64,000 bases of DNA from Ilyonectria destructans (lineage: Eukaryota; Ascomycota; Sordariomycetes; Hypocreales; Nectriaceae), in assembly GCA_020740775.1 (NCBI GenBank), contig JAHEWK010000031.1:1-64000 (forward strand). The letters are read 5' to 3'. This document shows, in pieces, positions 10,731-38,638 of the stretch. The notes beneath the pieces are model-generated. The model saw nothing but the letters and a program-made list of their open reading frames with translations, was not told the origin of the DNA and did no database searches. Within the stretch, counting starts at the first letter, position 1; every line of letters begins with the position of its first letter. The position numbers and the translations under genes were made by a program.

Positions 10731-11021
10731 TACGGTCGCACATTACCACATGGGTGACAAAACCATGTACGAAAATGACTGGAGCTATTTCGCACATAGG
10801 CTTTCGGCGTTTTTATATGGGGCTACAGTATTGATATGATAGCGCACTGTTTTCAATGTAGCAAAGCTGATGCCATACCAAGCGGTGCTGATGCCATTCC
10901 ATCGGCGCCGAAGCTCCGATAATGCCGGTTCAGAGGGGGATATTGCAGCTGGAAGCCTTGGAAGGAGGTATGAATTCCGACCTCTACCACGATCTCGAAC
11001 CCCTGGTCTGCGTCTCGTACA

Positions 11022-12720
11022 ATGCCGAGGCCCCGTAAAGACTTGGAGGGCGTCAAGGACTGGATCCTCGAGCAGCGGCGAGAAGGACTATCCATTGACA
11101 CTATATGTGCCCATCTCCGCGACGATGGGCACGTACTCGACGCCAGAACCCTGAAAAGGAGGTTAGCGGAATGGGGTGCACAGGAGTACTCCCCCCTTCA
11201 CTCAAAGATTGATACCAACACCTTCGTCGAGCTGATCAAAGGCTACTTCTACCGATACGGATATAGCGACACTTCCATCGTCCGTGATCTCAAGCGACGC
11301 GGCATCGAGATCTCCGAGCGGACTGTACAGGAGTATCGTCTGAAGCATGGCATGAAGCGGCGCTTCCGAGATCTGACTGAACGACAGGATGCTATTCAAA
11401 AAGCAAGAGAGTTCCTCTTCCAAGACGACCGTCAATCTTCAAGCATCAGAGGATTTGGCAGGGGGTATCTATACCACTACGTCCGCATCCGTGCCGGCGT
11501 CCTTGTCGGCCAGAATACCTTATATCGCGAGTACCAAACGAACCCAGAGTGGAAGAAGCGGGCCGAACAAAGACGCCTTGCTGATTGGAAGCACCGGAAG
11601 AACTTCCAGGTTCCTGGGCCTAACTTCATGTGGTCTCTCGATGGGTACGAGAAGCTCAAGAACTTCGGCTTCTCTATCTACGCCTGTATCGACACGTACT
11701 CGAGAGCCATCATCTGGATATATGTCGGCAGGGGGAACATGACTGCGCTGAGTTCACTCAAACAGTTTCTACGGACCGTGTCGTACTCAGGGGTCCGGCC
11801 CCTTTTCACCCGCTCGGATCATGGTATCGAGACTCCTCTTTGGGCCGGAGCCCAGGCGATTCTCGCCGACCTTGATCAGACAGAGTTTCGGTATACCACC
11901 GATGATAACGACCAACGAGTCCATAGGCAGGGAGCGAGACTGAGCTCCTGTCATATCTGGGGCCCAAGCACATCGAACCAACGGATCGAGTCTTGGTGGG
12001 AAAAGCTACTTAAAGGTGTCAGTCAGCGCTGGATCGCGTTCTCACACGAGCTGATTGATAGCGGCCTCTTCCAACCAAACCGTCTTGCTCACCAGATCGC
12101 GGTGTATGCTCTCTATGGACCCATGATCCGTCAAGAGGTTGCGGACTTCACGGAGATGTGGAACGGCCATCGCATCCGGCCACAGAAGAATAGGGAGCAT
12201 CTCGTCGCCGGGATCCCAATGGATCTGTATAATACAAGCGAAGTGGAGAACTGGGCAGTCCATCTAGGGCCTGCGGCTCGAGATGGGCTTGCCCAGATGA
12301 TGGCCGCTGTCGATTCTATCGATATAGACGATCTTCTTGACCCAACAACAACAGACTGGTGTGATCAACAGCTCCGGGATCTTCAGTTCGGTGGTCAGCT
12401 AGATGGGGAGCTTGATCATAAGCGACCACACCTCGCAATCTACTTACGGCTTAGAGACAAGATTCAGGTTCATCTCGACTGCGGGGCAAGTCCGGTGCTG
12501 AGCATCCCAGAGAGTCCAGTTGGAGGGAAAGAGAGATTCATACGTAAAAAAGTACTCCATCGCACTCAAAAGCTAGCTGACAATGCTTTAGCTTCAGCTC
12601 CTCAAGCAGAACTACCTTAAGCCTATTAACAATAGCCTCTCCGGAACTGAGCTACCTGGCGATATTATCAATAGTGTGGACGAGCTGATGGGGGACCTGG
12701 GTCACCTTGAGCTAGAGTAA
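11022..12720 (+). CDS. Integrase-type DDE transposase, IE copy 1
   Basis: The start ATG 11022 opens MPRPRKDLE, shared with copy 3. Residues 1-50 form a helix-turn-helix resembling a Clr5-like fold (GLSIDTICAHL, then TLKRRLAEWG). A second HTH follows (GYSDTSIVRDL...ISERTVQEYR). The integrase core has D207 (WSLDGYEKL), D266 (TRSDHG) and E323 (NQRIESWW), a DDE triad of the rve/IS3-like kind. I place it with IS3EU-like eukaryotic transposases from memory. The long frame ends at 12620. Copy 3 suggests a last 52-nt intron at about 12549-12600, whose donor would read ATACGT here instead of GTGCGT, followed by a final exon ending HLELE at 12720. The catalytic core is fully open. Confidence 0.8.
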
Positions 12721-12723
12721 CTA

Positions 12724-13973
12724 CTATTTCCTCGTCTGTTTAAGAGGATGCCGACTACTTGGCCTCCTCGTATCAACTCCTCGGGTTCCAGCAGCGGGAC
12801 CATAGGCAGTGAAAGCAGGGCCAGCCGAGAGCTCCTTATCCTCTGCCTCTACCGAGAGTGCTGAGCTTATAGAGTCTCGAGCTCGTTTCTGACCCGCGCG
12901 GGTCTCGTCCACGTCGCTAGTAATAACCTCGATGTGGTCTTCTGCGCTAGCTCTCGAAGGAGGTAGAACTGGGCTCAGAGAGGGGCTCAAGGAGGGCAAG
13001 TTGAACTCGCTCCTGATTAACAAGGCTGGCTGTACCTTCACCTCGGCCTTGACTAACTCTTTCTTAATTCCCTTCTCCTCTGTGAACGGCTTTACAGCTG
13101 ACCTCGGTGTCTTGACATGACGAGGGGCCGCGACTTGTGGTCGAGGAGGCAATAGCTCATAGAAAACAAGGAACAGGAGATATCTGCCCTCTGTTTTACT
13201 GAAACGGGAAGGGCGTCCTCGCCGAAAAGCTCTGCGACTGTCTGTCTCTCCCAGTCGAGGTCGCTCAGCTCCGTGATACCCTCTTTAATATGGGCGTTCT
13301 GAACGAGTCTCTTGTCGAATTGAAGAACAGAAGAGAGGGCAGGCTTGTCCTTGAACTGAGGGAAGAAGATGCTGTCGAACTAGAAGTGGACAGGTAAAGA
13401 TGGTTCCTCGTCGACGAAAGGGCGCAAAGCGACCTTCAGCAGCTCTCTAGCCAAAGACCACTGGGGCTCCTCGTCTTCGTCTAGCATTTCCCATGGGTCA
13501 GGCCTCGCAAGGAAGACGGTGAGGCGCATCGAGATCTTTCGTCTGCTCTTGTTTTGGCTCTGTTTAGCCACAGCCTCACTGAGTTGCGACGAGCTCGCCC
13601 TCATGCCCCTCGCGATCCGACTCTGGGTAAGTTTGGCATCTCGATACACGGCGGAGGGCCGCGATGCTGCGAGGATACGGCCAGGGCCGTCTCCAGAGCC
13701 GGTGAAGATCGTCTGCGAGGGCGTGGAATGATCAGAGGCTGTTAGGTCGATAGACTGTATAGCGGAGGAGGTGGAAGCTGTCTCAACGTCTCGAAACGGG
13801 ACTGGCGAGCTGTCGAGGATGGAGATACTCGTGGGCCAACGTCTCCCGCAATATGGACACAGATTCGACCCTGGGTAGCTATCGCGGATGAAATCGTGGC
13901 TCCGTTGGTACGATTTAGGGGCCACGGTCTTCGGAACATCGGGACATGTCTGCGATAGGACGTGATCGGGCAT
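12724..13973 (-). pseudogene. Accessory protein of IE copy 1, damaged
   Basis: The leftward gene starts near ATG 13973 (MPDHVLSQTCPD) and converges on the transposase. The N-terminus has LCPYCGRRWP, possibly zinc-binding together with TCP about 27 residues earlier. Next comes SIDLTASD, a canonical-looking SUMO-interacting motif with acidic and Ser residues after it. A conserved middle domain (RLTVFLARP, then FFPQFKDKP, then TVAELFGED) is shared with copies 2 and 3. Two lesions occur: a TAG near 13380 where copy 3 has Trp, consistent with TGG to TAG, and a 1-bp deletion near 13200 after AELFGED. After the shift the frame continues as FLVFYELLPPRP and a Ser/Glu-rich tail to 12724. No known family is recognised. 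Confidence 0.65.
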
Positions 13974-14306
13974 ATCTACGTACAAGCCAAGGTCAGTCGC
14001 ACAATCTCATGATGGATAGACCCGAGCTTACTTAGGGAATGGATGGGGATAGCCCATAACAGCTATGGGGTGGCGATGGGCTGGATATTGACGCTGGTGT
14101 GGATGTGTGAGTGGAAGAATTGTGACGCGTCACCAGGAATTATCACGACATATTCCCTGGTGGAGATGCCATCTAAATGAAGAGATACCTTCCGGATAGT
14201 GTGCGGTACTGTAGTCTTGCAAGGGGGCACAAAATTACTAAGTATTTCCACATGGTTGAGGCTTCCCAAAAGGGTTATGTCACCCATGTGGTAATGTGCG
14301 ACCGTA

Positions 14307-15253
14307 CATGGGAGTCCACTGCATGGTTCCCGCCTATGTACGAGGATGAGCTCTGGAGCAGGAACCACAACTGGAAAATGAACAAGATCTTGATTTGGGA
14401 CGATTGACAACATTCGCCCTTGGTTCTTTTCTCACTTTCGGAATGACGGTCGATTGTAACAGCCAACGCACAATGAACTCGGAACCATCAATCTATTACT
14501 TGAATCTGAAACATCAACTCAGAGAGAGCTGCTTAAAGATGTTTCCCACTCTCTCGAATGATTCCCTCGCGCGCGCGGGCCTCATCATGCCGCGACCATG
14601 AGCGCTGCTGACTCTCTCGTCCAACTCGCCCCAGCGCATCCATCTGTCTCACAGACAGCAAGCCCGCTTCGCCACCTTCAGGTATGCCAATCCCCAAGCA
14701 CCGCTCAATTGTCTCTAGGGAATGGAGAACGACCTCAGAGAACAGCACAGCATGCACTGAGTACACGGTTCTGCCAGTAGCAAGTCTCCAAACCTGAGGC
14801 CTGGAATAGGGGGTTTTGGCTCGGTCGCGATTCGCTCGATGCGCGCAGTCAGGTGCTTTAGAGTCAACTTGCAGAGGGATATGAGCTGGATGAAGATGCT
14901 CGTGATCGTCAGCGCGAGGGGGGCCAATACGGTTCCGAGCCTTCCGAATCAAATGTATCTTTTGCAAAACCCCAACACGGTCTTGATGGGTCATTCGATC
15001 CCTTGCGCTTCAGTAGAGCATCTCACTGTCAAACTGTAGACCTGGGATGGCCGCTGTGGCGACTGGAGAAGGATATCATTCAAGTTTAGCACTTGTTGAC
15101 GGCAAGCAGTACCTGCACCGCGGGGGGTGCAAATACCAACCACGTGACTCGTGCACCGCCGGGGGTGCAACCAAGATCCGTTATCTAAGAGGCATTTTTG
15201 GCCTTTGATAACATCCCTACTGCAAATTGGCCCTCAATTCAATGGTCGACAGC
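14307..15253. other. No gene recognised; two GC-rich hairpins
   Basis: Short frames on both strands show no recognisable family. Near 15112-15175 two similar palindromic motifs, GCACCGCGGGGGGTGC and GCACCGCCGGGGGTGC, lie about 40 bp apart, perhaps protein-binding or terminal sites of an unknown element. Confidence 0.35.
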
Positions 15254-15669
15254 TTATTCAGCCGAAGGCTGACTCTACATTATTCAGCCGAAGGCTGACT
15301 CTACATTATTCAGCCGAAGGCTGACTCTACATTATTCAGCCGAAGGCTGACTCTACATTATTCAGCCGAAGGCTGACTCTACATTATTCAGCCGAAGGCT
15401 GACTCTACATTATTCAGCCGAAGGCTGACTCTACATTATTCAGCCGAAGGCTGACTCTACATTATTCAGCCGAAGGCTGACTCTACATTATTCAGCCGAA
15501 GGCTGACTCTACATTATTCAGCCGAAGGCTGACTCTACATTATTCAGCCGAAGGCTGACTCTACATTATTCAGCCGAAGGCTGACTCTACATTATTCAGC
15601 CGAAGGCTGACTCTACATTATTCAGCCGAAGGCTGACTCTACATTATTCAGCCGAAGGCTGACTCTACA
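15254..15669 (+). repeat. 26-bp tandem array, 16 exact copies
   Basis: Sixteen head-to-tail copies of a 26-bp unit run from 15254 to 15669 with no visible mismatch. Each unit contains the stem-loop CAGCCGAAGGCTG followed by ACTCTACA. The same 13-base hairpin in the opposite orientation (CAGCCTTCGGCTG) occurs once at 17102-17114, just after the Helitron helicase remnant. The unit has no variable spacer, so it is a minisatellite rather than a CRISPR. It may be built from a transposon terminal hairpin. Confidence 0.95.
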
Positions 15670-16579
15670 TTAGTTCTTAAGTTTTCCCGAATAATGAGGG
15701 TTTGGTGCAGACAGGGATAAATAAGTTTCTCGGGATCTGATTGGTCCAAATTTTGTATTGCCAGTCGCTAAAGAAGGCTGGATTGGTTGGCAGCTGTAGA
15801 AAAGGTGGGTATCCGCAAGCCACCATCTGTCACTGCTTCTTTGTTTACTTCTTTGTTTACTTCTTTGTTTATCCGTACCATCGCCAAATTTGCCTGGCGA
15901 TCTGTTCGTTTGCTTGGCCAAGCAACCTTTCTTCCATTATCGATCCCGATGCACCGTATGACTGAGGATGGATTCCGATTCTAGGGGTAATATGAGCCCT
16001 GGATCTGATTTTGGAGTCCATTGCCCGTCTTGCAACCAAATAAAACCAGCAAGTGACTTCACTAGCAGGAGGAAATGATGGAAATCTGCCAATCAAACTA
16101 CAGCCTGCCTGGAATGCCGGGACCAGCGCAATTCCGAGGTAACTGACATCATTGGTATAGTCTATATGCCTCCCTAACCTGATCAAGCGTGCCAGATCCA
16201 AAGGTGCGGTCCTGACGTTGAGGCACCTGGCCGTCCGTCCTTCCTCAGCTGAGAGATCTGCCCCGAAAAGAACCGACGGAGATGCTGGCCTATCGCCTCC
16301 TAATGAGAGATCCGGAACCCAGCCTACATCGCCACTGAAGCTACGGCAACTTCATACAGCTAGGAGTTTATTCGGAGAGTCAATTAGCCAGCCGCACATA
16401 GTGCTGGGGACTCCAATTCCACCAACCCAACAAAGCACGCGGCATTTCCGTGCTCTAGCTCCCTCACCTCCCGTGCAGCCAACGGCGCATCCAATCGCCT
16501 CACATTCTGACCCATCTACTGTCCGAAGCAGCACAACTGGTTTGGATTACTCTTACTTGGCTGCTAGGTTCCACAGGGC
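15670..16579. other. No gene recognised
   Basis: A frame of 135 codons at 16218-16625 is Pro/Ser-rich and has no recognisable domain. A 13-bp repeat (TTTGTTTACTTCT) occurs in tandem near 15840-15870. The region may belong to the Helitron remnant that follows, but shows no homology I can recognise. Confidence 0.3.
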
Positions 16580-17064
16580 CGGGAAGCATCCGAGACCCTC
16601 CCTGTGTTATCATGATGGAGTTTGACAAATACAGCGGACCGGTATTCCTGACCACCGCTGATGGCAAGAAGATTGTGCCGACTCTCCCAGTGGAGAGGGA
16701 CTTCCTCATCGGAGCCACTCTCTGCGCTCGCACCCAGTTTCCCCTGATCGTATGCTACGCAACTACCGTGCACAAGTCACAAAGCATCACCGAAGACATG
16801 ATAGTTACAGATCTGTCCTGCCGGGACTTTCAGACTGGTTTAAGCTACGTGGCTGTCTCTCGCGTGAAAACGCTCGGCGGTCTGATGTTGGAACAGTTGG
16901 ATGCACCATTTGATCGTAATCACCTGGTCTACGGGTCTCCCCCGGATGGCATGAAGATGAAGATGAGGGATCAGGAGCTTAGGAAGCGACAGGTGCTCAT
17001 ACGGAATCCGTACATGTCACATAATACGAAGAATGGCCATGGCAATGGATCAGTACGTAGATAA
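16580..17064 (+). pseudogene. Helitron helicase, C-terminal remnant
   Basis: The segment encodes the end of a PIF1-type helicase of the Helitron kind. DPPCVIMMEFDKYSGP is followed by VPTLPVERDF, then YATTVHKSQS (motif V region, normally TVHKSQG) and SYVAVSRVKTLGGL (motif VI with its arginine). Everything before the last 160 residues is missing, including the Rep endonuclease and Walker A and B, so it cannot be active alone. It is on the plus strand and is not closely similar to the large Helitron at the right end of the window (which has KIQGET and YVQLSRCTSLDG). It therefore represents a different Helitron family. Confidence 0.8.
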
Positions 17065-17101
17065 TGCAGTAGTAGTAATAGGTTCCCGGCCCGCGGACAC
17101 A

Positions 17102-17157
17102 CAGCCTTCGGCTGAGGCTACCCCATGCACCCAATCGCCGCTCCAATGTGCATGGGG
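17102..17157 (+). other. Paired hairpins after the Helitron remnant
   Basis: A stem-loop CAGCCTTCGGCTG lies at 17102-17114. A second with a 10-bp stem, CCCCATGCAC (17121-17130) against GTGCATGGGG (17148-17157), follows. Helitron 3' ends typically carry a short hairpin shortly before the terminus, so one of these may mark that end. No clean CTRR terminus was found to fix it. Confidence 0.4.
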
Positions 17158-19490: not shown

Positions 19491-19694
19491 TACGGAAGGC
19501 CATAAGGGGCAGTGTACCAAAACCCCAAATTGATGTTTTTTAGGATGGGGTCACCCCCTCCGTCCGGCCCCGTTTGTAGGATAATATTGCGTCGCGTTTT
19601 TTTCCGCGAGTACGTACCTCCTCCCTCACCTCGCCGGCCTCTTTCGATCCCATTCGCAAGCCTTTTCACGCAATACGACCCAATACGCAACATC

Positions 19695-20487
19695 ATGGCC
19701 GGCGCCAGCGGAAAGAAGAGGCCCCCCCGTCCTCCCAAGAAGGATCCCAAGAACACCACTATGGGCCCGAATGATGCCGACCCCCTCGCCGAGGATTTGG
19801 GTGACCGCGCAGCCTCGCTGCTCCCTAAGGAGATCCTGGGTATCGACACCCGTACTTTCGCGTACAAGGTCGAACAGCCCGAATCGAACCCGGACCTTAC
19901 AGTTTGGGCTTTGATCAACGCTTTGAAGGGGAGCACCACCAAGGGGCAATCTGCTGTCGACTCCACCAAGGTACTTGGTTCTATACTAGCTCGGTTGATC
20001 ACGTACTAACCCGTACTAGACCGTCCGCGAGCTTCGGGTTCGCGTCAAGTCTAGCAACAAATCGCTCGAGGATACCCCCTACACTCTCAACTTTGCGAGC
20101 AGACAGAACTGCGATGCTATGCTGCGTCATCTGTACGGTGACGAACGGGAGGATACGGAGCGCTGCCTCAAGTGTACGAAGCGCAACGGGGCCCTCATCG
20201 GCTGCGTGGTTTCTGAAACCAATCCGGCTTGCGCCAATTGCGACTGGAACCGATCCGGCGCCGCCTGCTCCTTTACGAGTGAGTACGCTACAATACGCAA
20301 CCAAGCTTGATACTAATTCGGTACAGGTAAGAAGCGCAAGGCCAGCGAGGCCGATGATGACGACAGCGATGATACGGACCCGTTCGAAGGGATTGACCGC
20401 AAGACGTGCGCGCGGCTTGCCCAGATCTTCAAGGAGGCTGCTGACCGCAAGAAGAGAAAGAAACACACCATTTCGAAGGCGGATTAA
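19695..20487 (+). CDS. DUF3716-like cysteine-rich protein carried by IE copy 2
   Basis: Three exons (19695-19970, 20020-20278, 20327-20487) join in frame with GT-AG introns of 49 and 48 nt, giving 231 residues. The start is ATG 19695 (MAGASGKKRPPRPPKK). After a basic N-terminus and a helical middle there is a six-cysteine cluster, CLKCTKRNGALIGCVV...CANCDW...ACSF (residues about 144-178). This spacing resembles the fungal DUF3716 family and suggests zinc binding. A basic tail follows (SKKRKASE and RKKRKKH), a likely nuclear localisation signal. The gene is inside the inverted repeats and reads the same way as the transposase. Copies 1 and 3 lack it. It may be a DNA-binding helper or captured cargo; its function is unknown. 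Confidence 0.7.
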
Positions 20488-20631
20488 GGTATTTTGCCCA
20501 ATACGTAAACGTACGAACCCCAACTACCTTTTTTTCCCCAAAGTCCGCTGTCATTTCTTCGCTCTCTGAGCTGGAAATTTCGATTTAGGATTTGGCGCGA
20601 ATAATACTTTCGCGAACGGCTGATTCCGTCG

Positions 20632-20660
20632 GCGTACGGAGGCGTACGGCAAAGTACGAT
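20632..20660 (+). repeat. CGTACGG motifs upstream of the IE copy 2 transposase
   Basis: GGCGTACGGAGGCGTACGGC is a direct pair of the CGTACGG motif, followed closely by AAGTACG. The same motif occurs at 23939-23945 and 24015-24021 near the right end. It contains the TACGG of the element termini, so these are candidate transposase-binding sites. Confidence 0.5.
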
Positions 20661-20886
20661 ACCACTTTCTTACCGGGGGTCTGAAATTTCCGCTCGATTT
20701 TCTTTTTCGCTTGTGACCGTTCTAAATTGTGATGTTCCATTTATGGCAAAGTAAAGCTCCGTATGCACCCGTATTGCGCTATTTGATAACTCCCTCGGCT
20801 AGGAAAATTATATCGCGCAATCCAAACTTAAAACTTCGTCCTCCGTTTAGCTACGTACGACCACCAACGAAAACAGGCGGCACAAA

Positions 20887-22507
20887 ATGGTTCGCCCTTC
20901 CATTGACTTATCTTCGTTTCGCCTCCAGATTCAACAGTGGAAAAATGACGAAGGTCTCACAGTTCAGCAAATCATCCGGCGTCTTAAGGTCGATTTTCAT
21001 ATCGAAGTTAGCCGTATGACGATGTATCGCAACCTCAAGGCCTGGGGCACCTCTTTGACCCAACACACACAAGACTCTGAACGACTACGTGAGCGTATGC
21101 AAGAGCTTTTCTTCCATATGGTCTTAAACGATCACTTTATGCTTCTGCAGCTACATTCTGAAGGCTTTATCATCACGAAGACTGGGCTCTCACGGATACG
21201 GCGAGAGCTTGGCCTTTGGCGACGCCAAACCCTTGAGATGGTCACAGAGAGACTTACCGAATTGCGCCGTTTTTTTACAGACGAGGCCGAAAAGAACACA
21301 AAGCTTGAGAGCTATGGGCGTACATATCTCTACGTATATGTCCGTCAACACCAGCATGTCTTAAGCCGCCGAGCGCTATACGAATGCTTTCGTGACTTTT
21401 ATCCTGGAAGCATTACAGAACGGTGGAATACGATGCGGTATCGCCGAACTGGATGGACTGCCCCAGGCCCTGACTTTATCTGGTCCCTCGATGCATATGA
21501 TAAACTGAAGGCCTGGGGCTTTGAGATTTATGCTTCCATTGATGCTTACTCCCGGTTCATTACGTGGTTCTACGTGGGCATATCTTCTAGTACATCACGA
21601 AGCGTTGTTGCGCAATATCTCCACGTTCTCTCACAGCGGAAAACCATGCCAAACCTTGTCCGTTCAGATCGTGGCGGAGAGACAGTCCTGATGGCTGGAG
21701 CACATTATTACCTTTCGAAATCGCGCGTGCGCGTACGTGATGGTAATCCGCAAGATGTGCGCTTTCAGGACTGTTAGATCTATGGCAAGAGCACGCATAA
21801 TGAGAAGATTGAGAGCTGGTGGCTTAGGCTAAGTAGAGGCAGGGCTAAGTTCTGGCGGGCATGTATCTGGCATTATCTCCCCGTTTAATCTGATATTAAC
21901 TTGAGCTTAGGAGTACTTCTCTGAAATCACGGAACTCGGATACTTTACAAATGACTCCTTACCCGATCGTATTGCGATGCTCTATATCTTTATGCCACTT
22001 CTACGTGCGGAGTTTGCCGAGTTCGTACTTATGTGGAATTCGCATTATATTCGCAAACAGAGCAACAGGCCACATGTTGTTCCAGGGCAGCCATGGACTC
22101 TCTACTTCCAACCCGAGGCACGGCAGGTTGAAAGTTTCGCGGAAGTCATCCCTCAAGACCGATTATCTACGCTTCAGAATATCTTCGCAAGGGACCATAT
22201 TGACCTTGACGCTTACTTACCGGAGGAGACGATAATAGTTTGCGAAAAAATCCTACAAGGCCAACAGGATGAACCAAACGATCCAGCGCAACGGCCAAAG
22301 CTCTCATTGTATTTATTTCTACGGCATCATCTACAGCAATATATCACGAACAAGGAAGTACCAGCGCTGGGGCTATTAGTGACACCTACGGGTGGCCTTG
22401 ACCGCGTACGGGATCATTTGGCGGCTCACGATATTGATGCTGCTTTACTTTTGGAACGTATTGAGGAGGAAGAGATTGAGGAGGAAAGCCCCCAAGTATA
22501 CGACTAA
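20887..22507 (+). pseudogene. Integrase-type DDE transposase, IE copy 2, one in-frame stop
   Basis: From ATG 20887 (MVRPSIDLSSF) the protein has the same plan as copy 1. There is an N-terminal HTH (GLTVQQIIRRL, then MYRNLKAWG), then the integrase core with the first Asp in WSLDAYDKL, the second in VRSDRGGE and the Glu in NEKIESWW. Sequence identity to copy 1 is low, so it is a distinct subfamily. A TAG at 21775-21777 interrupts it between the second Asp and the Glu, where family members have an aromatic or His codon (DC-stop-IYGKS). Alignment to copy 1 also implies a short intron at about 21858-21910, possibly of GC-AG type. The C-terminus ends in a Glu-rich tail at 22507. One base change would explain the stop. 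Confidence 0.75.
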
Positions 22508-22534
22508 ATACAATAAAAGCAATTTTCACTCGAA

Positions 22535-23640
22535 CTAATCCCAATTCTTCTTTTTTCCCCTCCCAATGCGAACAGGAAGCTTCCTCTCTGGTGAAGCAAC
22601 GTGGATAGCTGACTGGTCAGTATCGCTCACAAAAGGATCACTCAATGCAGTGTCGTTAGTAGCCGAATCCCCGCTATCGTCAGCCTGAACCTCAACCTGA
22701 TCCTCAGTCTTCACAGGGCTTGGAGCTTCCTCCTTCAACGCTATAACGGATAGCTTCGGCGCCTTTGATTCCTCCTTAATAGTCGATCCGGGCTCTGATT
22801 TAATCGTACGTGTAGTTTTGCGTTTGCCAGGGTTCGGCGGTAATCTCTCTGACTCTAAATCGGAGGGTAGGCGATCAATCGCTCGCTTGCGACCCCGTAC
22901 GGCTCGTAACGGCATTGGTGACTCGTTTTCAGGTCGAGGCCTCGCGTTGAAGAAGCAAAAGTTCAAATTGACTGTATCACGCTTTGCAGCAATTGTGATA
23001 TTTGTCACACGAAAGAGATCCGCAAGCGTTGTTGTAGAATACGCAGCATCAGCGAACTCTACGGGGCCAGATGTAGCCCCAACGGTTGACACGGAATGAA
23101 CGACCTTCCAGTCCTTGACCGCGAATCTTGGGTCACATTGCTCAACGATGAAGTGTATCATCGAGCTATGGGATTGGAATCTTCGCCCCATAACGATTTC
23201 AATATTTCCCGTACGCTTGCCAACTAGCTTTGGTACCTTATCGTATACTTCGGTCTCGATACTGTCGATGATATTGTCATAATAGCCATCGCACAACCAG
23301 AACATGGCATGCAATTCGACAACTATGGGGTCCTTATGCCCCTGTGTGCCTGCGATGCTGTTCTGACGGTTCTGTACGGCTTGGACCATGGCGTTCTGGT
23401 AGGTATCAGGCCTCGGCCGTGTTCGTTGAGAAGGAATCGTCATAGCATTGCCTCGTGAGTTGGTATTCTGTGCCGTAATATTCGTCTTAGATGAGGGTGA
23501 ATCGGCTGTGAGATCGATAGAAATAGGGGTAACGGAGGTACTAGACGAGACCGTAGGGAGTCGTTGAGCGCAATGCGGGCAATAAATGGTGTAACGGGCT
23601 AGGCCCTGCTGGGCAAGGAGGTGCCTTGTCCTCTTGCTGG
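22535..23640 (-). CDS. Accessory protein of IE copy 2
   Basis: A long open leftward frame covers 22535-23640 and includes the internal Met at 23443. The N-terminal part has YTIYCPHCAQRLP, matching LCPYCGRRWP of copy 1, followed by ISIDLTADSPSS, which matches the copy 1 IDLT motif and looks like a SUMO-interacting motif. The middle domain (IHFIVEQCDPRF, then TTTLADLF, then LNFCFFNARPRPE) corresponds in order to that of copies 1 and 3. A basic segment (RGRKRAIDR, and GKRKTTRTIK) and a Ser/Glu-rich tail end in RGKKKNWD. The true start is unresolved: a separate first exon may begin at ATG 23878. No stop interrupts the shared region. No known family is recognised. Confidence 0.65.
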
Positions 23641-23931
23641 TCTGAGCACTGTTGCTCTGTCGACGACTTAGTCTATTTTGTCGAAGGATTTTCTGTCCCT
23701 TTCTCTTTCTTCTTCTTCTTTCCTCAGCTCGTATGTAAAACGCATGAGGACTATATAGCTGTAATTTACACTATTAGAACCCTTCACAAATGGCTTGAGG
23801 GAACTTCGTACGTATTTCCACATGACGGGTGCGATCTAGTGGACAATACTCCGTGGGAGGCGATAAAGGTATATCCATTATATGAGGCAAGAGAAGGATA
23901 AGAGAGCAATTCGCTTCCCAATTGTGCCGTG

Positions 23932-24058
23932 CTTCAACGTACGGATTAAATACCTCAGCAACCCCTTGCTAAATTAGGGCACACAAAACGCAGCCAAATC
24001 TTACCGTACTTCAGCGTACGGACTCTAGTCCCTTTAGCACCACTTTACTAAATTAGGC
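23932..24058 (+). repeat. Imperfect direct repeat near the right end of IE copy 2
   Basis: Two related blocks of roughly 50-55 bp each contain CTTCA(A/G)CGTACGGA(T/C)T and end in CTAAATTAGG (first about 23932-23988, second about 24008-24058). They sit between the accessory gene and the right terminal repeat and look like paired binding sites for the element's own protein. Confidence 0.6.
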
Positions 24059-24216
24059 TAAGAACATATCCCCCCATAGAAGGGTTTTTGCCTTTACGGC
24101 AGAATGCGGGCTTAATTGTAATTAAACAGGAGGATAAAGCGACATTGGCGTTAGCCTAGTAATGGAAAGATTGAAAGTTTGGGGTTTTGGTACACTGCCC
24201 CTTATGGCCTTCCGTA

Positions 24217-25835: not shown

Positions 25836-27418
25836 TATACCTCGCGCTAAAAGCTAACCAGAAAGAGTCTGGAATTCCCCGCACTTGCTGCTCCTGAACC
25901 AAGTCTGTGGAAATAACGGTCAACTTGTTTTTACTGAGTGAGCCTCCAAAAATCTGCTCGTCTTTTCTCTGAGGCAAGTTCTATATCGATGTAATTGAAA
26001 ATGAAGTCTACCCGGCGGGTTGACTAAGCCTGCGGCCGAGGCCCCCACCTCTCCTGGCGGAGAGGTGGTATCACAACCCGTATCTGCGTCACTTGCGTAT
26101 CCGCTTCGTGCCACTTTGAACTATCACAACTTCGTCAATTTAAGCTCCCTTGACTTCAAATTGAAGATATATCTTCTTATCAATCTTATTTCATCATGCC
26201 CCAAAATTTGGAAAAGTCCCGACAGTGTGCGGCCCGCGCGGCCCGTGCCTATCTCTCCGGCGACTACGTCACACGTACAACGCGGGGGAATCTTGCACCC
26301 CTGTAACGGGCTGTGCCCGTAGGTGGCCTCGGGAACCCTCGGCCTTTCGTGGCCCACTTTTACCTTTAAGCCACCATGACGAGTATATTTATGGATGGAC
26401 CTCCTCTACTCTCTTTCTCTTCTTCTTCTTTCCTTAAGTTTGGTATACTCTGTAGAGTGGCCTAGCTAGTTGCAATACACTACCTTGAGACCGTTACAAC
26501 CCCCGCGCCAGCTCTCAATCCTTGATATGGCCGCCTTACACCACGCCAGCGGGCCTCTTACGAAGAAATATATACGGCTGTTGAAAGAAAATTTGCCTCT
26601 TCCAGGTGATAATAAAGGCGGCAATCCACCTGCCCTTTCACAGGCTGAAGAGAAGGCGTTGGTTACGTATATCCGTACCGTTGAAAAGAGCGCATTTGCG
26701 GTCACAGAGAACTCTATCCGCAACTACGCCAACTTCATAAGGAAATACCGTATCAAAGGCCCTGTGACGCCGGTCTCGAAGTCTTGGGTCCGGCGGTTTA
26801 AAAAGAGGCATCCGGAGCTGCAGTGTAAGGCGCCAAAAATCAAGGAAATTGCACGAGCTGGAGCAGAGCTTGATATCGAAAGACTGGAAGCTTGGTTTGA
26901 AGAATATGCTGCAGTCCTTAAGGAGCTGGGTATTACTCCAGCTAATCTATGGAATTTTGATGAGACTCCCTTACAGCTAGGGTGGGTTGATTCTTTTATG
27001 CGGATTTTTTCAACCCGGATGAAGAAAAATACAAGGCCTGTGACTTTTCAGCCGGGAAATAAAGAGTCATTGACATCAAGTGGATGTCACAGGTCTTTTT
27101 TGGTGCGGGGTCGCCCGCCGACCCCGCAGATTACCGCCGTGCCCTTGACATCACCCCAAAAGTACGGATGTCAACTCCGCAACACCGTTGCGACCGAAAT
27201 ACTGGATATACGAGGGTGAAAGCTATACCGTCCGATAGCGCCTATTCCGGTGATCAAATGCACGTTCTTTCATATTGTGGAGTCGCTTGGTTCAATTGTT
27301 ATGGTGGTTTAAAATTTCACCCGCCTGCACCGGCCTAGCCCCAGGTCACACAAAAAACAAACATTTTGCACCAAGTCAGTCAATAAACCCCTGATTTTCG
27401 ATCTACAGTAATACCTAA

Positions 27419-30394: not shown

Positions 30395-30448
30395 CGAATC
30401 CCTATTGAATTCTGAAGGACCGGGCCTTCAGATTTGAACAGGGATTCG
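30395..30448. repeat. 54-bp stem-loop near the Crypton right end
   Basis: CGAATCCCT (30395-30403) pairs with AGGGATTCG (30440-30448), and inside it TCTGAAGG (30411-30418) pairs with CCTTCAGA (30425-30432). It lies 64 bp inside the Crypton right boundary, upstream of the recombinase start, and may be a recombinase-binding or regulatory site. Confidence 0.6.
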
Positions 30449-32513
30449 TATGGGGGCCGTGCGGTCATTCGGCGACCGGACGACCCGTCGTCGGGCGCGA
30501 AGACCTGTGACACCAGTGGATGCTATCAATGCAGCCGGCCGGGCAATTCCTTCCTTTCTTATTCTCAGTGCAAAGGTATTGCTAGAGGAATATGCCCTAG
30601 CTGATATCAATGAGGAAGTGGTCCTCACACAGACCTCTACTGGCTTCAATAATGCCCATCGAGCCCTGCAGTGGCTGCAGCACTTTAATCGTCATTCCTT
30701 TGCCCTGAGCGATGACTTCAAGGGCTTTTCTATCAAGACCTGGTTCGGATATGACTCTGACTTATCCCGTAGTCAGTGGGATGAAAAGGTAGCTTATACG
30801 AAGTCATATATGACCAGGAAGACAAAGCCGGTATTCCGGCTGCTGATGATGGATGGGTTTTCTGCTCATGAAGACCCTGAATTTATCTGGTATTGCAATA
30901 AATTGGACATCATCCCATTCCGGCTTCCTTCACATACCAGCCATCTATTGCAGCCTCTAGATGTTGGTGTTTATCAGCATCTAAAAAAGGAACAGCGTAT
31001 TGCCCTTGCCGACTTCATCACGGCCGGCGGTATGCGAATTACTCGATATGACTTCCTCAATCAGTGGGACCGGCTTTTTGAAGCAGCATTTCGGCCCTGT
31101 TATATCTATGCCGGCTTCGATAAATCAGGTCTTATGCCATTGAAGCCAGAGATGGTATTAGGGCCACTACGTCGGGCTGCTTTAGATCTCGAAGAGCCCT
31201 TATTTCCTAAGCTTATTCACAAAGGAACAGTCTCACCGAGGAAGGCAAAGAGGAACTTTTCAAAGATAGAAAATAAGCTTGAGATTCTAAGCAGCCCTAC
31301 GAGAGCTAGAGTTGATGACGTTGCTGCCTGCCTTGACCTTGCAATTATCACTCAATCAGCCCACAAGCAGATAATTTATCTTCAACGGGAGCGTATTCGA
31401 GTTGAAGCCCGCCGTACGAAGACATTGAGACGCATCCGGGTTGACGATGGTGCCTTTACTATAGCTCAGATACGTGAGAAGGTTGCAGACCGAGGCTATG
31501 AGGAATGGGCTAAGGAAGCTAAAAAGCAGGCTCGTCAGCAGGAAGCTCAGTGGCGTGAGATGAGGCAGGAAGAAGCTGCTAGACTGAAGGCTGCTAAGGC
31601 AGAAAGACCTCGCCTGTACGGTCGAGCTGCTGCAAGGGCAAAGGAGGCACAAGAGGCAGCTGACGCAGTTGCCTTGGAAGAATATCGCCAAAGCCTCATT
31701 ACGCCAGAGGACCTTGAGATTATTGAGAATGCAAGGCGGCGATGGAATCAAGCTAATGATGACACACGAAGCTTCTATTATTCAACATTCTCAAAGCCAA
31801 CGCTGGATGCTATTCCAGAGGTTGCTATGTGGTTGCAAAGCCGGGCTACAATTATATGTGCCCCCTCTACGAACTACGGTATAGATGAGGCTGATGGAGT
31901 TGATGAGGCTGATAGCGTTGATGGCGTTGATGGGGCTGACGATGCCGATGACTTCCTCTCTGTCGTATCGTCATTGGAATTACCGGTCTTGCACAACGAG
32001 GAAGACTATGATAGTGATGATATTGAGATCATTACTAACACGCAGATTGATGCTACAATGCAGTCTTTTTCAAATATCCAACAACGGGCAAATGAGGAAG
32101 AAAACAGCGCTCAAAGTCAGCAGCAAATACACACAGAGAGCTATGGGGGATTTGGTTACGAACGCATGCGTAATACCTATTCAGATGACGAAGAGGCTGA
32201 GCCCTCTATTCTCGTAGGAGGCCGGCAAATTCGGGTCCCAAAGGTACGGCAGCGGGGCTAGGGTCAGGGTTCAATCAGCCACAACATTTTAGTCTTTAGA
32301 GAAAAATGTAACAGGACCTCGATATCAATTGATCAGAAGTATACGATTCACATGATATTTTTATTTTATTTTGATGACCTCAAATGAACGTGGTGGCTTA
32401 CACCAAAGTGGCACGAAGCGGATACGCAAGTGACGCAGATACGGGTTGTGATACCACCTCTCCGCCAGGAGAGGTGGGGGCCTCGGCCGCAGGCTTAGTC
32501 AACCCGCCGGGTA

Positions 32514-32817
32514 GTAAACCGTAAGCTGACTGGTTTATGTTGGCAGCTGAAACGAGGCGTAACGTACTGAGCGTGGGGTGGCGAATCACGTCTGATAATG
32601 TTAAGAAGTATTCTTGAGTAATCAAATTGTATTGAAAGCTGAGGTAGCTAGAGTGTCTGTCTAAGGGTTGTTGTGTGGTCTTTTATAGGCATGGTCTGGA
32701 GAGGATCTCACGATGTCCATCGTGAGATGCCGTCGCATTCTCACTCGCACGGAGTGAGAGAGTGACCGGGACGACGGGTTCCGGAGTGAGCGGTAATACG
32801 TTGATCCGTGCCGTGAC
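32514..32817. other. No gene recognised
   Basis: Flank to the right of the pogo element. A small palindrome CTCACGATGTCCATCGTGAG is visible at about 32706-32725. Nothing coding is recognised before the pogo-like fragment that follows. Confidence 0.4.
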
Positions 32818-32979
32818 AAATATCACCTCGCCAGCTGGTACCAAGAAAGCAACCTTCCGGGAGATTTGGCTATTGCGACAACTCAAAATGGCTGGACCGA
32901 TAACGAGACGGGTCTTGAGTGGCTCAAGCACTTTGACCAGCACACAAAGACCTGATCCAACGGCCGCTATCGTCTTCTA
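32818..32979 (+). pseudogene. Fragment of another pogo-type transposase
   Basis: The translation reads WYQESNLPGDLAIATTQNGW, then TDNETGLEWLKHFDQHT, a stop, and NGRYRLL. This is the central part of a DDE_1 domain immediately before the second catalytic Asp. Only about 54 codons remain, and a TGA interrupts them. It is from a different pogo family than the neighbour at 26011-32511, whose matching stretch reads QTSTGFNNAHRALQWLQHFN. Confidence 0.7.
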
Positions 32980-33614
32980 ATCTGTCAACCTAGCACTGAT
33001 ACACAAATGCAGACATTGAACAAAAGATCAGTGTAGATTGAGGACTAAAAGCCTTAGCCTCCCTATCTAAAAGGAGCGACGAAAGTCGGTCTCTTATACC
33101 TGTGTTCAGTCTACCGATCTCATAGGCACCAGGCTGTTGCCTGTCGTTAGTGATGGTGTAGCGTTCAAGCTGACCGTGAAGCTATTCACGATGGTTGTGA
33201 TCTGTGAAAGGCTGGACAGGAGTTTGTTCAACAGGCTGTTGCCGTAGGATTGTCTATCTAAAGCTAAAGAGAAGAGAAGAAGAAGAAGAAGGGAACCCCT
33301 TTCCTCGTTGCTAAATAGTAATATAGTCGCTAGGATAAGATAGGTGAAGGTATAGGCGAAGTCCGGGCTTCGCCGCTACTTCGCCGATAAGTCGCCCCAC
33401 TTCTCAGTTAGCTGGGTTCCGGCCGGCAAAGCTGGAACCCGAACCCAGGCCTCAGCCTGTAACAATCTGTCGGAAAGCTAGCGTAGCACTCTGATATTAA
33501 TCGTGTATATTATATTGTATATCTGTATTCTCCTCCTCTCTTCTTATTCTGAGGTATCAGAGCAAGCTTTATATACCTGTTCTGTGCTGTGTAGAATCAG
33601 CTAGAAGCTGCTTC
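32980..33614. other. Non-coding; possible LTR remnant
   Basis: AT-rich sequence with a GAAGAAGAAG tract near 33272-33290 and GC-rich inverted pairs (GGTTCCGGCCGGCAAAGCTGGAACC at about 33415-33440). GGTATCAGAGCAAGC at 33553-33567 resembles the start-Met tRNA primer site of copia-type elements, so 33460-33552 could be the end of an LTR, but no partner was found. Confidence 0.25.
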
Positions 33615-34175
33615 CTAAGCCTTGTGGCAAAGTGCTAGGCAACTGATCACATGACCCACCCGGTCTGATGCCGGGTGCATGGTCCAATCTAACACTATCT
33701 CCCTCCTCAGCCGGCTTCTCAACGGTGCCGTCATACGTCCTGCACTGCTAAATGTCCTCTCGCTCTCCGCAGACGACGATGGGATGGTGAGCATATCAAC
33801 CGCCATCAGAGACAGTCGCGGGTACCGATTCCTGTTGATTTTCCACCAGTCAATCGGTCTGCTTCTGTAGTGGTGACTGTTGACAACATCCTCAGCACAG
33901 TACCGAGCATATTCGTCATCAGCAGTCGCTCCCGCTGTCGTGTGTTTCGTCTTTCGGGTGCTCTTGCGGGCACTGGACGCTGCCAAGGACGAACCCTGGG
34001 CGCATGGCGACCCAGCTACACTCCTGGCAAGTCTCCGCTCAATGTAATCCATTGAGGCCTCGTCAGATGTAGCGAAGACTTCGTAGTCAACGTCGCATTC
34101 CCTGTAACTCTCCCAGATCTCCAAGAGCTTGGCTTCGTACTCTAATCGCCAACCCTTGGCCTTACAGGAAGGCAC
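33615..34175 (-). pseudogene. hAT-B transposase, C-terminal fragment
   Basis: The leftward frame encodes the hAT C-terminal dimerisation region: DWWKINRNRYPRLSLMAVDML, then SSSAESERTFSSAGRM. It is preceded by a linker rich in Ser/Arg/Lys. The upstream catalytic part is missing: its coding start runs into the left end of hAT-C at 34186, so hAT-C has landed in or beside this older transposase. Similarity to the other hAT copies in the window is at motif level only, so it is a separate family. Confidence 0.8.
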
Positions 34176-34296
34176 TCGAGACCACCAGGGTAGGGAATCA
34201 ATCCACGACTTCCACGGTATTGATCAATATATTGACTTCGATCCACGTCAACGTCAATCCACGAGACCTGTTGTTATGTAATCAACCCATCCACGG

Positions 34297-34342
34297 TGGG
34301 TCTTGATATTTGCACCATCGATGGTGCATGTATCAAGACCCA
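34297..34342. repeat. 46-bp near-perfect palindrome
   Basis: TGGGTCTTGATA (34297-34308) pairs with TATCAAGACCCA (34331-34342), and the centre TGCACCATCGATGGTGCA is itself a perfect palindrome. It lies in the left subterminal region of hAT-C. The phrase ATCAAGACCCA recurs at about 34503. Confidence 0.85.
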
Positions 34343-35116
34343 GTCAAGCGAGGCCAAAAGAAAGCGATCCAGGGAGAGAAAGTGGGGCTTTACTTTGTGG
34401 TCAGGATTGAAGGTGGCAGAAATGTAAATAGCATAGCGTATTCCATGGCCCTATGAGATCCGTTCTCCCGGGCGTAATAAATCTACTACTACTACTACTA
34501 CTATCAAGACCCATCCACGGTTGGGGGCTCGTGGATTGAGATGTGGATTGACGTGGACGCTAGTCAGGGTACGGTCGCACATTAGGACATGAGGTGCAAA
34601 ACCATGTGGGAATATGAAGACCCTTACTTTCCACACAGGATTTCATAATTCACACCAGTTTTATTATGGCGATCCGTATGATTTATGTGTCGCACTATGT
34701 AACTTGTAGTGTTTCATCCCCATTCATCAGGTTGAGACGTTGACCCAGCTGTCGTCCAACTGGATCAACGGGCTCAAGCCGCATGCAAGGGCAGTCGAAC
34801 CACTATCTCCGAGACATTAACTCGGAATCCTACGTTACCATTAGACCATATGGGGCCTATTTGATGTATCTACCTGTTTAACTAAACCAAGAACCGCGTT
34901 GGGGAGAGAATAATCTCACGGGCCTGGCATCCAGTAGCCCGGTGTCCAGCTTACGGGTCCGCGGGCCGTAGCTCCGTGACAAGACATACGCAGGCCCTCA
35001 CCGCCTCTTCTGAGCTCTCGTCTCTTGACTGTTCTTTGCTTCCATCACGTCAACGAGTTGTCCATCTCACCAGTTATCCCTTAGCTTACCGCTGTGCCCT
35101 CAGCCCGTTACACAAG

Positions 35117-36814
35117 ATGCCACGGCCTAGAAAGGACCTGGAGCCTCTCAAGGACAGGATCCTTGAAGAGCGGCAACGAGGCCTCACGTTGGATACTATC
35201 GCTGCCCATCTCCGCGATGAGGGATTCGACGTCGAGGTTACCACGCTCAAGAGGAGGTGCCGTGAGTGGGGTGTTGCCGGGAGAAGTACCTTGGCCTCAC
35301 AAGTCGCTACAGACGACCTGGTAGCCCATATCTCTCGATACTTCTTCCTCTACGGGTACAGCGACACCTCCATCGCGCGGGACCTCCAGAGGAAGGATAT
35401 CACGATCTCTGAGCGGACGGCCAAGGAGTACCGCCTACAAAACAAGATGAAGAGACGGTACCGAGACGCCGCCGAACGACAAGAAGCTATCGACAAAGCG
35501 AGACAGTTCCTAGACCAGGACGACCGTCGGTCTTCTGCCGTGAGGGGATTCGGAAGGGGCTACTTGTACCACTACGTTGGAATCCGCGCCTGTGTTCTCG
35601 TTGGACAAAACGCCTTGTACCGGGAGTACCAGACGAACCCTCAGTGGAAGCGACAATCAGAGAAGAGGCGCCTTGCTGACTGGAAGCATCGCCAGAACTT
35701 CAAGGTCCCTGGCCCCAACTTCATGTGGTCTCTCGATGGGTATGAGAAGGTCAAGAGCTTCGGCTTCCATATATACGCCTGCATCGACGCCTTCTCGCGG
35801 GCCATCATCTGGATATACGTCGGTAGGGGTAACGTCACCGCCTTGAGTACCCTCAAGCAGTTCCTCCGTACGGTCTCCTTCTCAGGGATACGTCCGCTCT
35901 TCACCCGGTCAGACCATGGCATCGAGACTCCTCTGTGGGCTGGGGCTCAAGCTATCCTCGCTGACCTTGACCAAACTGAGGTCGTGTATATGAGCGAAGA
36001 CGAGACCGAGCGAGTCCATCGACAGGGACAGAGACTAAGCTCTTGTCACATCTGGGGACCAAGCACAAACAACCAGAGGATCGAGTCTTGGTGGGAGAAG
36101 CTCCTCAAGGGTGTGACGCAACGCGGATCTCTTTCTCGCACGAGCTTATCGATAGTGGGCTTTTCCAGCCCAACCGGGAGGCTGATCAGATCGCTGTTTA
36201 TGCCTTGTACGGGCCAATGATCCGTCAGGAAGTCGCTGACTTCACGGAGATGTGGAACGGCCATCGTATAAGGCCTCAGAAGAACCGGGAGCACCTCGTC
36301 TCTGGTATCCCTATGGATCTCTACAACACTGACGCGGTAGAGAAGTGGGCGGTCAAGCTCGGGGGTTCCGCCTTGGCTGGCCTCGATGAGATGCTACAGG
36401 CTGTGGACGCTGTTGATATCGACGATCTCCTTGATCCAGGAACCCTAGAGTGGTGTGAGGAGCAGCTGAACGACCTAGCTTTCGACGGTCAGTTGAATGG
36501 AGATCTTGACCATAAGCGTCCACATCTCGGGACATATTTAGAGCTAAGGGACCGCATCCAGGGCCATCTCGGGTCGCAGAGAGAGCCCCGTCTCTATATT
36601 CCCGAGACTCCGACGGGTGGGACGGAAAGATTCGTGCGTACAAGAGCAAACCACGTAAGGGTATCACAAACTGACGGTAGCTAAGCTACAACTCCTTCAG
36701 CGGAACTATCTTAGCACTTCTGGTGATAGTCTCTCCGGGACTGACCTCCCTGCGACCTTTGTTAGTGGGGTAGACGGGCTGATGGAGGATATGACTCACC
36801 TTGAGCTAGAGTAG
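35117..36814 (+). pseudogene. Integrase-type DDE transposase, IE copy 3, frameshifted
   Basis: ATG 35117 opens MPRPRKDLEPLKDRILEER, almost the same as copy 1. The two HTH regions and the integrase core are present (D in WSLDGYEKV, D in TRSDHGIE, E in NQRIESWW). After LLKGVTQR near 36123 a single base is missing relative to copy 1 (CGCTGGATC against CGC-GGATC), and the frame shifts. The remaining C-terminal part continues in another frame from about 36124 as ISFSHELIDSG and onward, with MWNGHRIRPQKN. A last intron of about 52 nt starting GTGCGT precedes a final exon ending HLELE at 36814. One base deletion is thus the main lesion. The protein would be about 550 residues if whole. Confidence 0.85.
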
Positions 36815-38100
36815 CTAGCCTCACGTCCGCTTCTTCTTCTTCTGTTGCTCGGAGCTTGGACGTCGTGCCATGAAGCCCCGGGTCCTCGAAGCAGGGTAGG
36901 CAACAGCTCTCGAAGCAGGCTCACCAACGACGTCGTTAACCTCATCGTCTGATCAGACCTCCCTCGCTTAGGAGAGAGACCAGGGGAGCTATTAGCCGGA
37001 CGCCTCTTTGCTTTTGGGTGGGCAACCACACCGGCCACGTCGTCTTCTACGGGAGGAACTGAGGCAACGCTCCGTTCCGGGGATGGAGATAGAGACAGAG
37101 AGTTGAACTCGGTATCGATAGCAAGAGGTTCCTGCGCGTGTTGTTTAACGCCTCTTTCTTGCATGATCTCCTTACCCTTCCTCCGACTCGCTAGCATACT
37201 TTGAGGTCCTGACTCGGCGGGTGACTGGAGACTGTGGCCGTGGGTAGCGGCTCGTAGAAGACAAGGAATACATGGTACTGCCCTTCAATTTTGCTGTATC
37301 GAAAAGGACAGTCTTCTCCAAATAGCTCCCCAACTGTCTTCTGGGTGTAATTAAAGTCGCCCAGCTCCGTGATGCCATCACTAAGATGGGCGTGATGAAT
37401 GAGCCTGTTCTCGAACCCAAGGTAAGGAGCTATCACAGGCTTATCCTGGAATTGAGGGAAGACGATCTTGCTAAGCCACAAGGCAACAGAGATGGTCGGC
37501 TCGGAGATAACGTAGCGCCTCAGGGCTACCTTCAGTACCTCCCTCGCCAGGATCCATGGAGGGTTGTAGCCTTCTTCTACTATCTCCAACGATTCAGGTC
37601 TCGCAAGGAAGATCGTTAGGCGTGTAGAGATCTTCCGCTGGGTCCTCTTGATGGCTTGCTTAGCCGCCGCCTCGGTCAGTTGCACGGAGCTCGCCCACAC
37701 ACCTTTCTCGATACGCTGCGAGCAAGGGCCGCGTCACGGTATGCGGGCTGCTGAGACCCGGCGAGGATACGCCCAGGGCCATCTCCTGAAGACGCGAAGA
37801 TCGTCCGAGATGGTGTTCCTCTTCTTCCTGAAGAGGACGTTCCTCGGCTAGACGCCGCGATGCTGGTGGACGTCGAGGCGGGCGTAGATATTTCCGCCAC
37901 TGTCTCTTCTGTTGAGGCCCAGATCGGAGAACTGTCGAAGATCGTGATACTCGTGGGCTAGCGTACCCCATAATAGGGATAGCAACACGGCTTGGGGTGG
38001 GAATCTCTAATATAGTCGTGGCCCTTGTGGTAAGCCCGCGAGACGAGGTGCTGTGGTATGTCGGGGCAGTTCGTGGTCCACATATGGCCTGGCAGCTTGA
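36815..38100 (-). pseudogene. Accessory protein of IE copy 3, damaged
   Basis: The leftward gene converges on the transposase. The best preserved part is 37191-37700: ISTRLTIFLARPESLE, KIVFPQFQDKP, TVGELFGEDC and FLVFYEPLP, which define the shared domain of this family. Upstream the frame changes near 37715 (after ILAGSQQPAYRDAALARS). The N-terminal motif reads CCYPYYGVR-stop-PTS where copy 1 has LCPYCGRRWPTS: one Cys has become Tyr and a Trp has become TAG, changes of the G-to-A type on the coding strand. The IDLT motif is not preserved. A TGA at 37191 ends the main frame, after which a recognisable Ser-rich tail (EFNSLSLSPSPE) continues in the same direction. Confidence 0.65.
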
Positions 38101-38638
38101 CACGCGATTAGGGACGACTAAGGTCAATTGAGGTGATATAAACTTACTGTAGAAATTAGCGATAGAAGAGAATATACGGACGAAATCAATTAATCCATTA
38201 GTTGGTGAGAAAAAGAGGGGTGGCAGGGCCGTTGGTATGCGGATTGGGTTGGATCGTAGGTCAGGTTGGGGGGGCCGGAAAAAATTACCTGCCCAGGCTC
38301 ACGTGCTGGTTGAGGTGTAGGGGGATGAAAAGGCACTTGGATCATAGTGTGCTACACTGTAATTCAGCAAGGGGGTACTGCTGACTCAGTATTTGGACAT
38401 GGTCACGTCATCCGAAAAGAGTTATGCACCTCATGTCCTACCGTGCAACCGTATCAGGGGTATGTGCGCCTTGATATATTTCGTTAATATTTGCTATGTA
38501 TCTCTGCGCAAACACTAACGCATCTAACCAGGTAATACCTCCGACGCGTTCTGACACGTCGTGACGCGTTATAACGCCTGAACCCAAATGTCTCCTCATT
38601 TACTCAATTCGTACGGTCCGTAACCCTTCAATTTCGAG

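Follow-up and report, generated by a model that had tools for sequence, protein, structure and literature searches.

Accessory genes convergent with the transposase in IS3EU-type transposons of Ilyonectria destructans: a candidate SUMO-linked partner

Three related transposons in the I. destructans window

We analysed a stretch of 64,000 nucleotides from the ascomycete Ilyonectria destructans (GenBank assembly GCA_020740775.1, contig JAHEWK010000031.1, positions 1 to 64,000; hereafter the window), which contains three related transposons, each with a rightward DDE transposase gene and a leftward accessory gene converging on it. The accessory gene, whose product is a candidate SUMO (small ubiquitin-like modifier)-linked partner of the transposase, is the main subject of this study. 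The three copies represent families A (copy 1), B (copy 2) and A' (copy 3); these and the families B2, B3, B4, B5, C and D, found elsewhere in the genome, were told apart by transposase identity.

10731-14306, + strand: copy 1, whole element (family A, 3576 bp), delimited by its inverted repeats
10731-10764: copy 1, left terminal inverted repeat, starting with TACGG
14273-14306: copy 1, right terminal inverted repeat
11022-12720, + strand: copy 1, transposase (exons 11022-12551 and 12610-12720, predicted intron 12552-12609; Pfam rva_4)
11640, 11817 and 11988: copy 1, starts of the catalytic D/D/E codons
12724-13973, - strand: copy 1, accessory gene, disrupted by a premature stop and a frameshift (intact in other copies, e.g. 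L003)
19491-24216, + strand: copy 2, whole element (family B, 4726 bp)
19491-19529: copy 2, left terminal inverted repeat
24178-24216: copy 2, right terminal inverted repeat
20887-22507, + strand: copy 2, transposase, interrupted by an in-frame stop (second part 21977-22507)
22535-23668, - strand: copy 2, accessory gene with open core and tail (open reading frame of 302 aa at 22535-23443)
34570-38453, + strand: copy 3, whole element (family A', 3884 bp), with TCAGGG on either flank
34570-34602: copy 3, left terminal inverted repeat
38421-38453: copy 3, right terminal inverted repeat
35117-36708, + strand: copy 3, transposase, frameshifted (D/D/E codons starting at 35735, 35912 and 36083)
36815-38101 (approximate), - strand: copy 3, accessory gene, split between frames (core open reading frame 37191-37700)

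Inverted repeats of 34, 39 and 33 nt (97%, 100% and 88% match in copies 1, 2 and 3, respectively) bound the elements where the initial annotation of this DNA had placed them. The repeat pattern of copy 1, with at most 3 mismatches allowed, occurs at 89 sites genome-wide, as against 0 for the reversed control, so these repeats are not a product of chance. Every copy in the window has at least one damaged gene, and intact relatives reside elsewhere in the same assembly, e.g. L003, whose intact accessory frame comprises 416 residues.

The transposases match the Pfam models rva_4/rve (E values of 3e-28, 1e-11 and 1e-15 for copies 1, 2 and 3), and all seven frames inspected, those of copies 1 and 3 and of five relatives, have a D-58-D-47..56-E triad. 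Of the domains initially assigned to these proteins, the DDE core is well founded, whereas the N-terminal helix-turn-helix (HTH) domains correspond to weak Clr5/HTH matches, above the Pfam cut-off in copy 3 only. The transposase of copy 3 is 68-72% identical to that of copy 1, with which the copy 2 protein aligns at 33% identity, in agreement with the close and distant relationships first suggested. The accessory gene does converge on the transposase in each copy, and the stop codons are, as reported, 27 bp apart in copy 2; the distance of 3 bp given for copy 1 (12718-12720 versus 12724-12726) applies only if the predicted intron 12552-12609 is spliced. The proposed two-gene plan does not hold for copy 2, which carries a third gene, encoding a DUF3716 protein. 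The accessory gene is present in all three copies, as claimed; it is disrupted in copy 1, split in copy 3, and has in copy 2 a 5' end unlike that of copy L009.

Linkage and constraint of the accessory gene

Linkage of the two genes was surveyed throughout the 71.7-Mb assembly, with hit lists merged by hand and a linkage distance of 5 kb. A transposase lies within this distance of 108 of the 119 accessory loci, and 108 of the 123 transposase loci have an accessory match equally close, compared with approximately 2% expected by chance for a random place in the genome. The association of the two genes proposed in the initial annotation thus holds genome-wide, and it extends over groups sharing no more than 33-49% identity in their transposases.

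An accessory match is missing at 15 transposase loci: 11 of these are fragments, two are near-full-length genes carrying seven and nine stops, respectively, and in two (L055 and L056) the frame is near-complete. The four near-full-length loci all belong to group C. The accessory gene may be needed for movement, as the initial annotation suggested, although L055 and L056 have no accessory frame. Conversely, L034, the one accessory locus without a transposase that was inspected (by eye), is a decayed fragment adjoining a hAT-like frame.

The ratio of nonsynonymous to synonymous substitution rates (dN/dS) is 0.13-0.20 for the transposase exons. For the accessory gene it amounts to 0.24 in the A/A' core (where dS, at 1.4, is near saturation), 0.32 between B and B2, and 0.53 between B4 and D. 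By these values both genes are under constraint, the accessory gene less so than the transposase.

Features of the accessory protein

Intact accessory proteins are approximately 380-416 residues long, and six of them, compared with Pfam, matched no family above the cut-off. Profile comparison joins the accessory groups B and B4 (98%), B and B5 (96.5%), and B and A (95%); the last of these extends over the charged tail and the latter half of the core, and may be inflated by composition. Direct profile comparison of A with B4 or B5 gave no match, and the group C protein is joined to the others by position and motifs only. The proteins share a recurring plan, consisting of an N-terminal Cys-His-Cys-Cys motif, a motif of the IDLT/VDLT type, a core, and a tail bearing multiple copies of [VIL]KxE.

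13731-13754, - strand: copy 1, SUMO-interacting-like motif SIDLTASD
13042-13068, - strand: copy 1, SUMO-site-like motifs IKKE and VKAE
23495-23521, - strand: copy 2, SUMO-interacting-like motif SIDLTADSP
22946-23332, - strand: copy 2, accessory core region
22703-22804, - strand: copy 2, tail with four SUMO-site-like motifs (IKSE, IKEE, LKEE and VKTE)

The pattern C-x(6-15)-H-x12-C-x2-C was found in 9/9 of the examined accessory proteins having an N-terminus; L014 (B2) lacks the first cysteine, which is present in its relative P0002. A putative SUMO-interacting motif (IDLT/VDLT) occurs in 8/9 proteins, including the metagenome protein P0007, the exception being B5.

The motif [VIL]KxE occurs 30 times in ten accessory proteins (from which the near-duplicates or fragments P0003, P0005, P0006 and L032 were omitted), compared with means of 3.0 and 3.5 after global and local shuffling, respectively, and 0 of 2000 shuffles reached 30. 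The reversed motif was found 5 times in the same proteins. There is no excess in six transposases (2 occurrences versus 1.1-1.2 expected), and among nine control proteins the lowest p was 0.064. KxE is preceded by V, I or L in 30 of 40 cases in the accessory proteins, versus 3 of 12 in the nine controls. Taken singly, seven accessory proteins show an excess at p < 0.005, while the values for A, B2 and B4 are 0.047, 0.18 and 0.33.

In a structural model of the relative P0001, the accessory core may weakly resemble a ubiquitin-like (beta-grasp) fold; a fold search gave no Foldseek match at E 0.001, the VIA rows being a lead only. The tail is modelled at low confidence and without secondary structure, as disordered tails are, and the model of the family A protein (predicted local distance difference test score of 33) yielded no usable fold.

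Close relatives of these proteins occur in other fungi. The B2 protein (L014) is 97% identical to P0002 of Ilyonectria robusta, and that of family A shows 95-96% identity to its counterparts in Fusarium nematophilum and F. oxysporum and 85% to that in F. solani, the F. oxysporum and F. solani values covering approximately half the protein. The identities with Fusarium (P0008, P0011) and I. robusta (P0002) might reflect horizontal transfer.

DUF3716 genes and internal repeats

A gene additional to the transposase-accessory pair was identified in copy 2.

19695-20487, + strand: copy 2, third gene, DUF3716 zinc-cluster-like (exons 19695-19970, 20020-20278 and 20327-20487; 231 aa)

The Pfam match to DUF3716 spans 20116-20274, the predicted splice model gives an intact frame, and L009 has an exon homologous to this gene. 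For each of B, B2, B3, B4 and B5, a single scanned locus showed a DUF3716 gene preceding the transposase. A second such gene may be located at the far end of the element, as in L030:4826-5500 (B4) and L032:276-1094 (D), giving four genes, and both DUF3716 genes are present in four B4-type loci. The upstream gene of the D element was seen by eye only, a DUF3716 match for it not having been obtained. To judge from the gene positions, family A would have no space for a DUF3716 gene. Of the 53 DUF3716 matches in the genome, 46 lie within 5 kb of these transposases; the other seven, more than 5 kb away (C2:631759, C4:1035133, C3:98184, C26:163348, C26:157158, C74:1607983 and C38:142371), may include host genes.

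TACG/CGTA reaches a density of 16-20 per kb in families B, B2 and B5, compared with 4-8 in their flanks and in other families, and no raised density was observed in the single elements of A, A', B3, B4, D and C that were examined. In the B5 stretch CCGTAC occurs 35 times, versus 3.5 in shuffles. The CCGTACG-like internal motif repeats the tip of the inverted repeat (L009, L014, L031 and the window element at 19491-24216), and such repeats would suit an end-binding protein or a silencing-related DNA-binding protein alike.

Relationship to known transposons

In structure, the three copies fit IS3EU-type cut-and-paste DNA transposons, for which termini TAYGG..CCRTA, repeats longer than 30 bp and 6-bp target duplications (PMC12730594), or TA..TA termini with 6-bp duplications as the usual case (PMC10045372), have been described. 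All three window copies have TACGG..CCGTA ends with repeats of 33-39 nt, and the comparison with rve-type profiles recommended at the outset gave rva_4/rve matches to the core, with no zinc integrase (HHCC) domain among the Pfam matches. The 6-bp duplications are found in family A and copy 3. The B clade, of which B, B2 and B3 were scored, differs in having mostly 5-bp duplications; further differences are the SUMO-motif accessory gene and, in the B clade, the DUF3716 gene(s). Two other assignments were rejected: Ginger1, since the N-terminus matches HTH-type models and no HHCC integrase model, and the duplications are 5-6 bp and not 4 bp; and IS481EU, whose duplications (approximately 4, 15 or 25 bp) are incompatible with the 5-6 bp observed here.

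IS3EU is the commonest DNA transposon of Colletotrichum lupini (PMC11645255). The IS3EU-related element Styx of Zymoseptoria is 7.9 kb long and has four open reading frames, two of them with DNA-binding motifs, and an ancestral two-protein IS3EU has been suggested (PMC10853768). Styx resembles the elements described here in its ascomycete host, DDE transposase, zinc-type DNA-binding genes (GATA and CCHC in Styx), 36-bp repeats, 6-bp duplication and recent bursts; it differs by a DUF3577 gene and greater length, its genes being compared by published description only (PMC10853768). When the accessory alignment was used for a profile search, no protein named as coming from Zymoseptoria was among the matches, which is weak evidence as regards homology with Styx. 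In rust fungi, IS3EU elements with alpha-kinase and TET/JBP genes are known, and capture of TET/JBP has been suggested to help in escaping silencing (PMC12730594). They share with our elements a second gene opposite to the transposase, TAYGG ends and 6-bp duplications; the second gene, however, encodes an alpha-kinase, with TET/JBP between, and SUMO is unmentioned in the main text of the report (PMC12730594). The initial annotation knew of no described fungal transposon with this gene pair, but multi-gene IS3EU elements have been published (PMC10853768, PMC12730594).

While the general kind is already known, the SUMO-motif accessory family, its DUF3716 linkage and the 5-bp clade appear to be new: no publication on them was found in the part of the IS3EU literature on fungi that was examined. 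Literature searches also revealed no paper on DUF3716, alone or with transposons, and nothing joining a SUMO-interacting motif or SUMO/Ubc9 with a DNA transposase or a transposon-encoded factor. Plant VANDAL elements encode a transposon-borne partner protein, VANC, and accumulate a short motif. The partner protein and the motif accumulation (here in B, B2 and B5) are points of similarity, whereas the VANDAL transposase belongs to an unrelated class.

A predicted role for the accessory protein

The best reading of the sequence data is that the accessory protein is an ancient partner of the transposase, which probably assists movement of the element; its link to SUMO is a prediction. Based on the genomic linkage, the profile matches between accessory groups, the motif excess, the shared motif plan, the dN/dS values and the signs of recent movement, we propose, with a probability of about 0.5, that it is a SUMO-linked partner, which would lead the transposase or the ends of the element to host factors marked with SUMO. 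The Cys/His motif would have zinc and DNA (the ends of the element), or the transposase, as ligands, SUMO would dock on the IDLT motif, and the tail lysines would receive SUMO from the host. Host repair or chromatin factors marked by SUMO would thereby meet the transposase and the ends of the element, and in B, B2, B3, B4 and B5 the DUF3716 zinc-cluster protein would be an added DNA-binding subunit. A bolder and still tentative extension is that a whole clade of eukaryotic DNA transposons might run on a dedicated SUMO adaptor (with zinc finger, SUMO-binding motif, ubiquitin-like core and a series of SUMO acceptor sites) recruiting the host SUMO machinery, with DUF3716 subunits reading the CCGTACG repeats. 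In that case the accessory protein would be the first known transposition partner working through SUMO, as both target and reader, unlike a SUMO protease.

Some observations weigh against the proposal of a SUMO-linked partner. Two of the ten accessory proteins show no individual [VIL]KxE excess, and the ten are related, and therefore amount to fewer than ten independent tests. Moreover, L055 and L056 keep a transposase frame and have no accessory frame.

The main rival is that the accessory protein acts as an anti-silencing factor, countering SUMO-dependent heterochromatin or RIP-like (repeat-induced point mutation) silencing to allow expression of the element, with no part in cut-and-paste; we consider this possible, but rather doubtful. 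The accessory gene evolves faster than the transposase, and the density of the CCGTACG-like motif in B, B2 and B5 resembles the accumulation of a motif that goes with the VANC anti-silencing proteins of VANDAL elements. The gene is, however, also present in families without motif accumulation, e.g. A, and the motif, being the tip of the element's own repeats, would equally fit an end-binding protein. The TET/JBP genes captured by IS3EU of other fungi, with their proposed role in escape from silencing (PMC12730594), are a further point in favour of the anti-silencing explanation.

It is unlikely that [VIL]KxE and IDLT are by-products of an acidic/basic disordered tail in an ordinary DNA-binding helper (acting in nuclear import or end binding), for which the two-protein system of Harbinger elements would be the model. 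The low-confidence, unstructured model of the tail and the two proteins without individual excess would suit this explanation, but neither the local composition-preserving shuffles, nor the reversed motif, nor the nine controls reproduce the excess. That the accessory gene is a mere passenger without a role in movement, as L055 and L056 might suggest, is highly improbable in view of its linkage across such divergent transposases and dN/dS below 1, and these two loci represent one divergent group (C), with no repeat pair found at either.

The SUMO-linked partner proposal provides an unannotated transposon gene family with a concrete candidate function, and DUF3716 gains a home beside these transposases. 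If the SUMO link is true, a simple gene pair would be available for asking how transposons use host tagging for mobility or silencing escape, in elements that look recently active in fungi.

Families, target duplications and recent movement

Family A comprises at least 19 full-length transposase copies with 97-100% identity, the window copy included. Exact 6-bp target duplications flank 8 of 14 copies, and 3 of the 14, copy 1 among them, have no matching flanks. Since near-identical full-length copies are accompanied by target duplications, family A has moved recently. Among three family A copies (C30:327520, C15:54067 and C18:138074, i.e. loci L005/L038, L048/L049 and L052/L053) the flanks are interchanged cyclically, suggestive of ectopic exchange between contigs or of a misassembly.

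Among the 19 elements of B, B2 and B3 with both ends, exact duplications of 5 bp were found in 8 and of 6 bp in 1. Copy 2 of the window has none, and four further copies of its family measure 4522 bp, versus its own 4726 bp. Two B2 copies (L021 and L023) have mutually swapped 6-bp flanks. Copy 3 is flanked by the 6-bp duplication TCAGGG, and an exact target duplication was found neither at L032 (D) nor at L033 (A').

The left end of group C is TATGG. Its right end was not found in L029/L054, while L055 has a right TACGG end and no detected left one, and neither end was found in L056. No end pair was detected in L024, L028, L031, L034 or L030, the right end of the last lying beyond the stretch examined.

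Three further observations concern family A. A 235-bp repeat pair resembling a miniature inverted-repeat transposable element (C16:744061-744295) is the sole short pair among the 89 end sites. A heavily decayed copy (C4:2116814-2118256) has 49 transposase stops, as would be expected of repeat-induced point mutation, in a genome that also harbours intact copies. Two copies at near-equal coordinates (C2:2161821 and C4:2161804) perhaps reflect a duplicated chromosome end or an assembly duplicate. Finally, frames resembling pieces of a pogo/Tc1-like transposase were seen by eye between copies 2 and 3 of the window, at 26470-27219 and 30450-32261.

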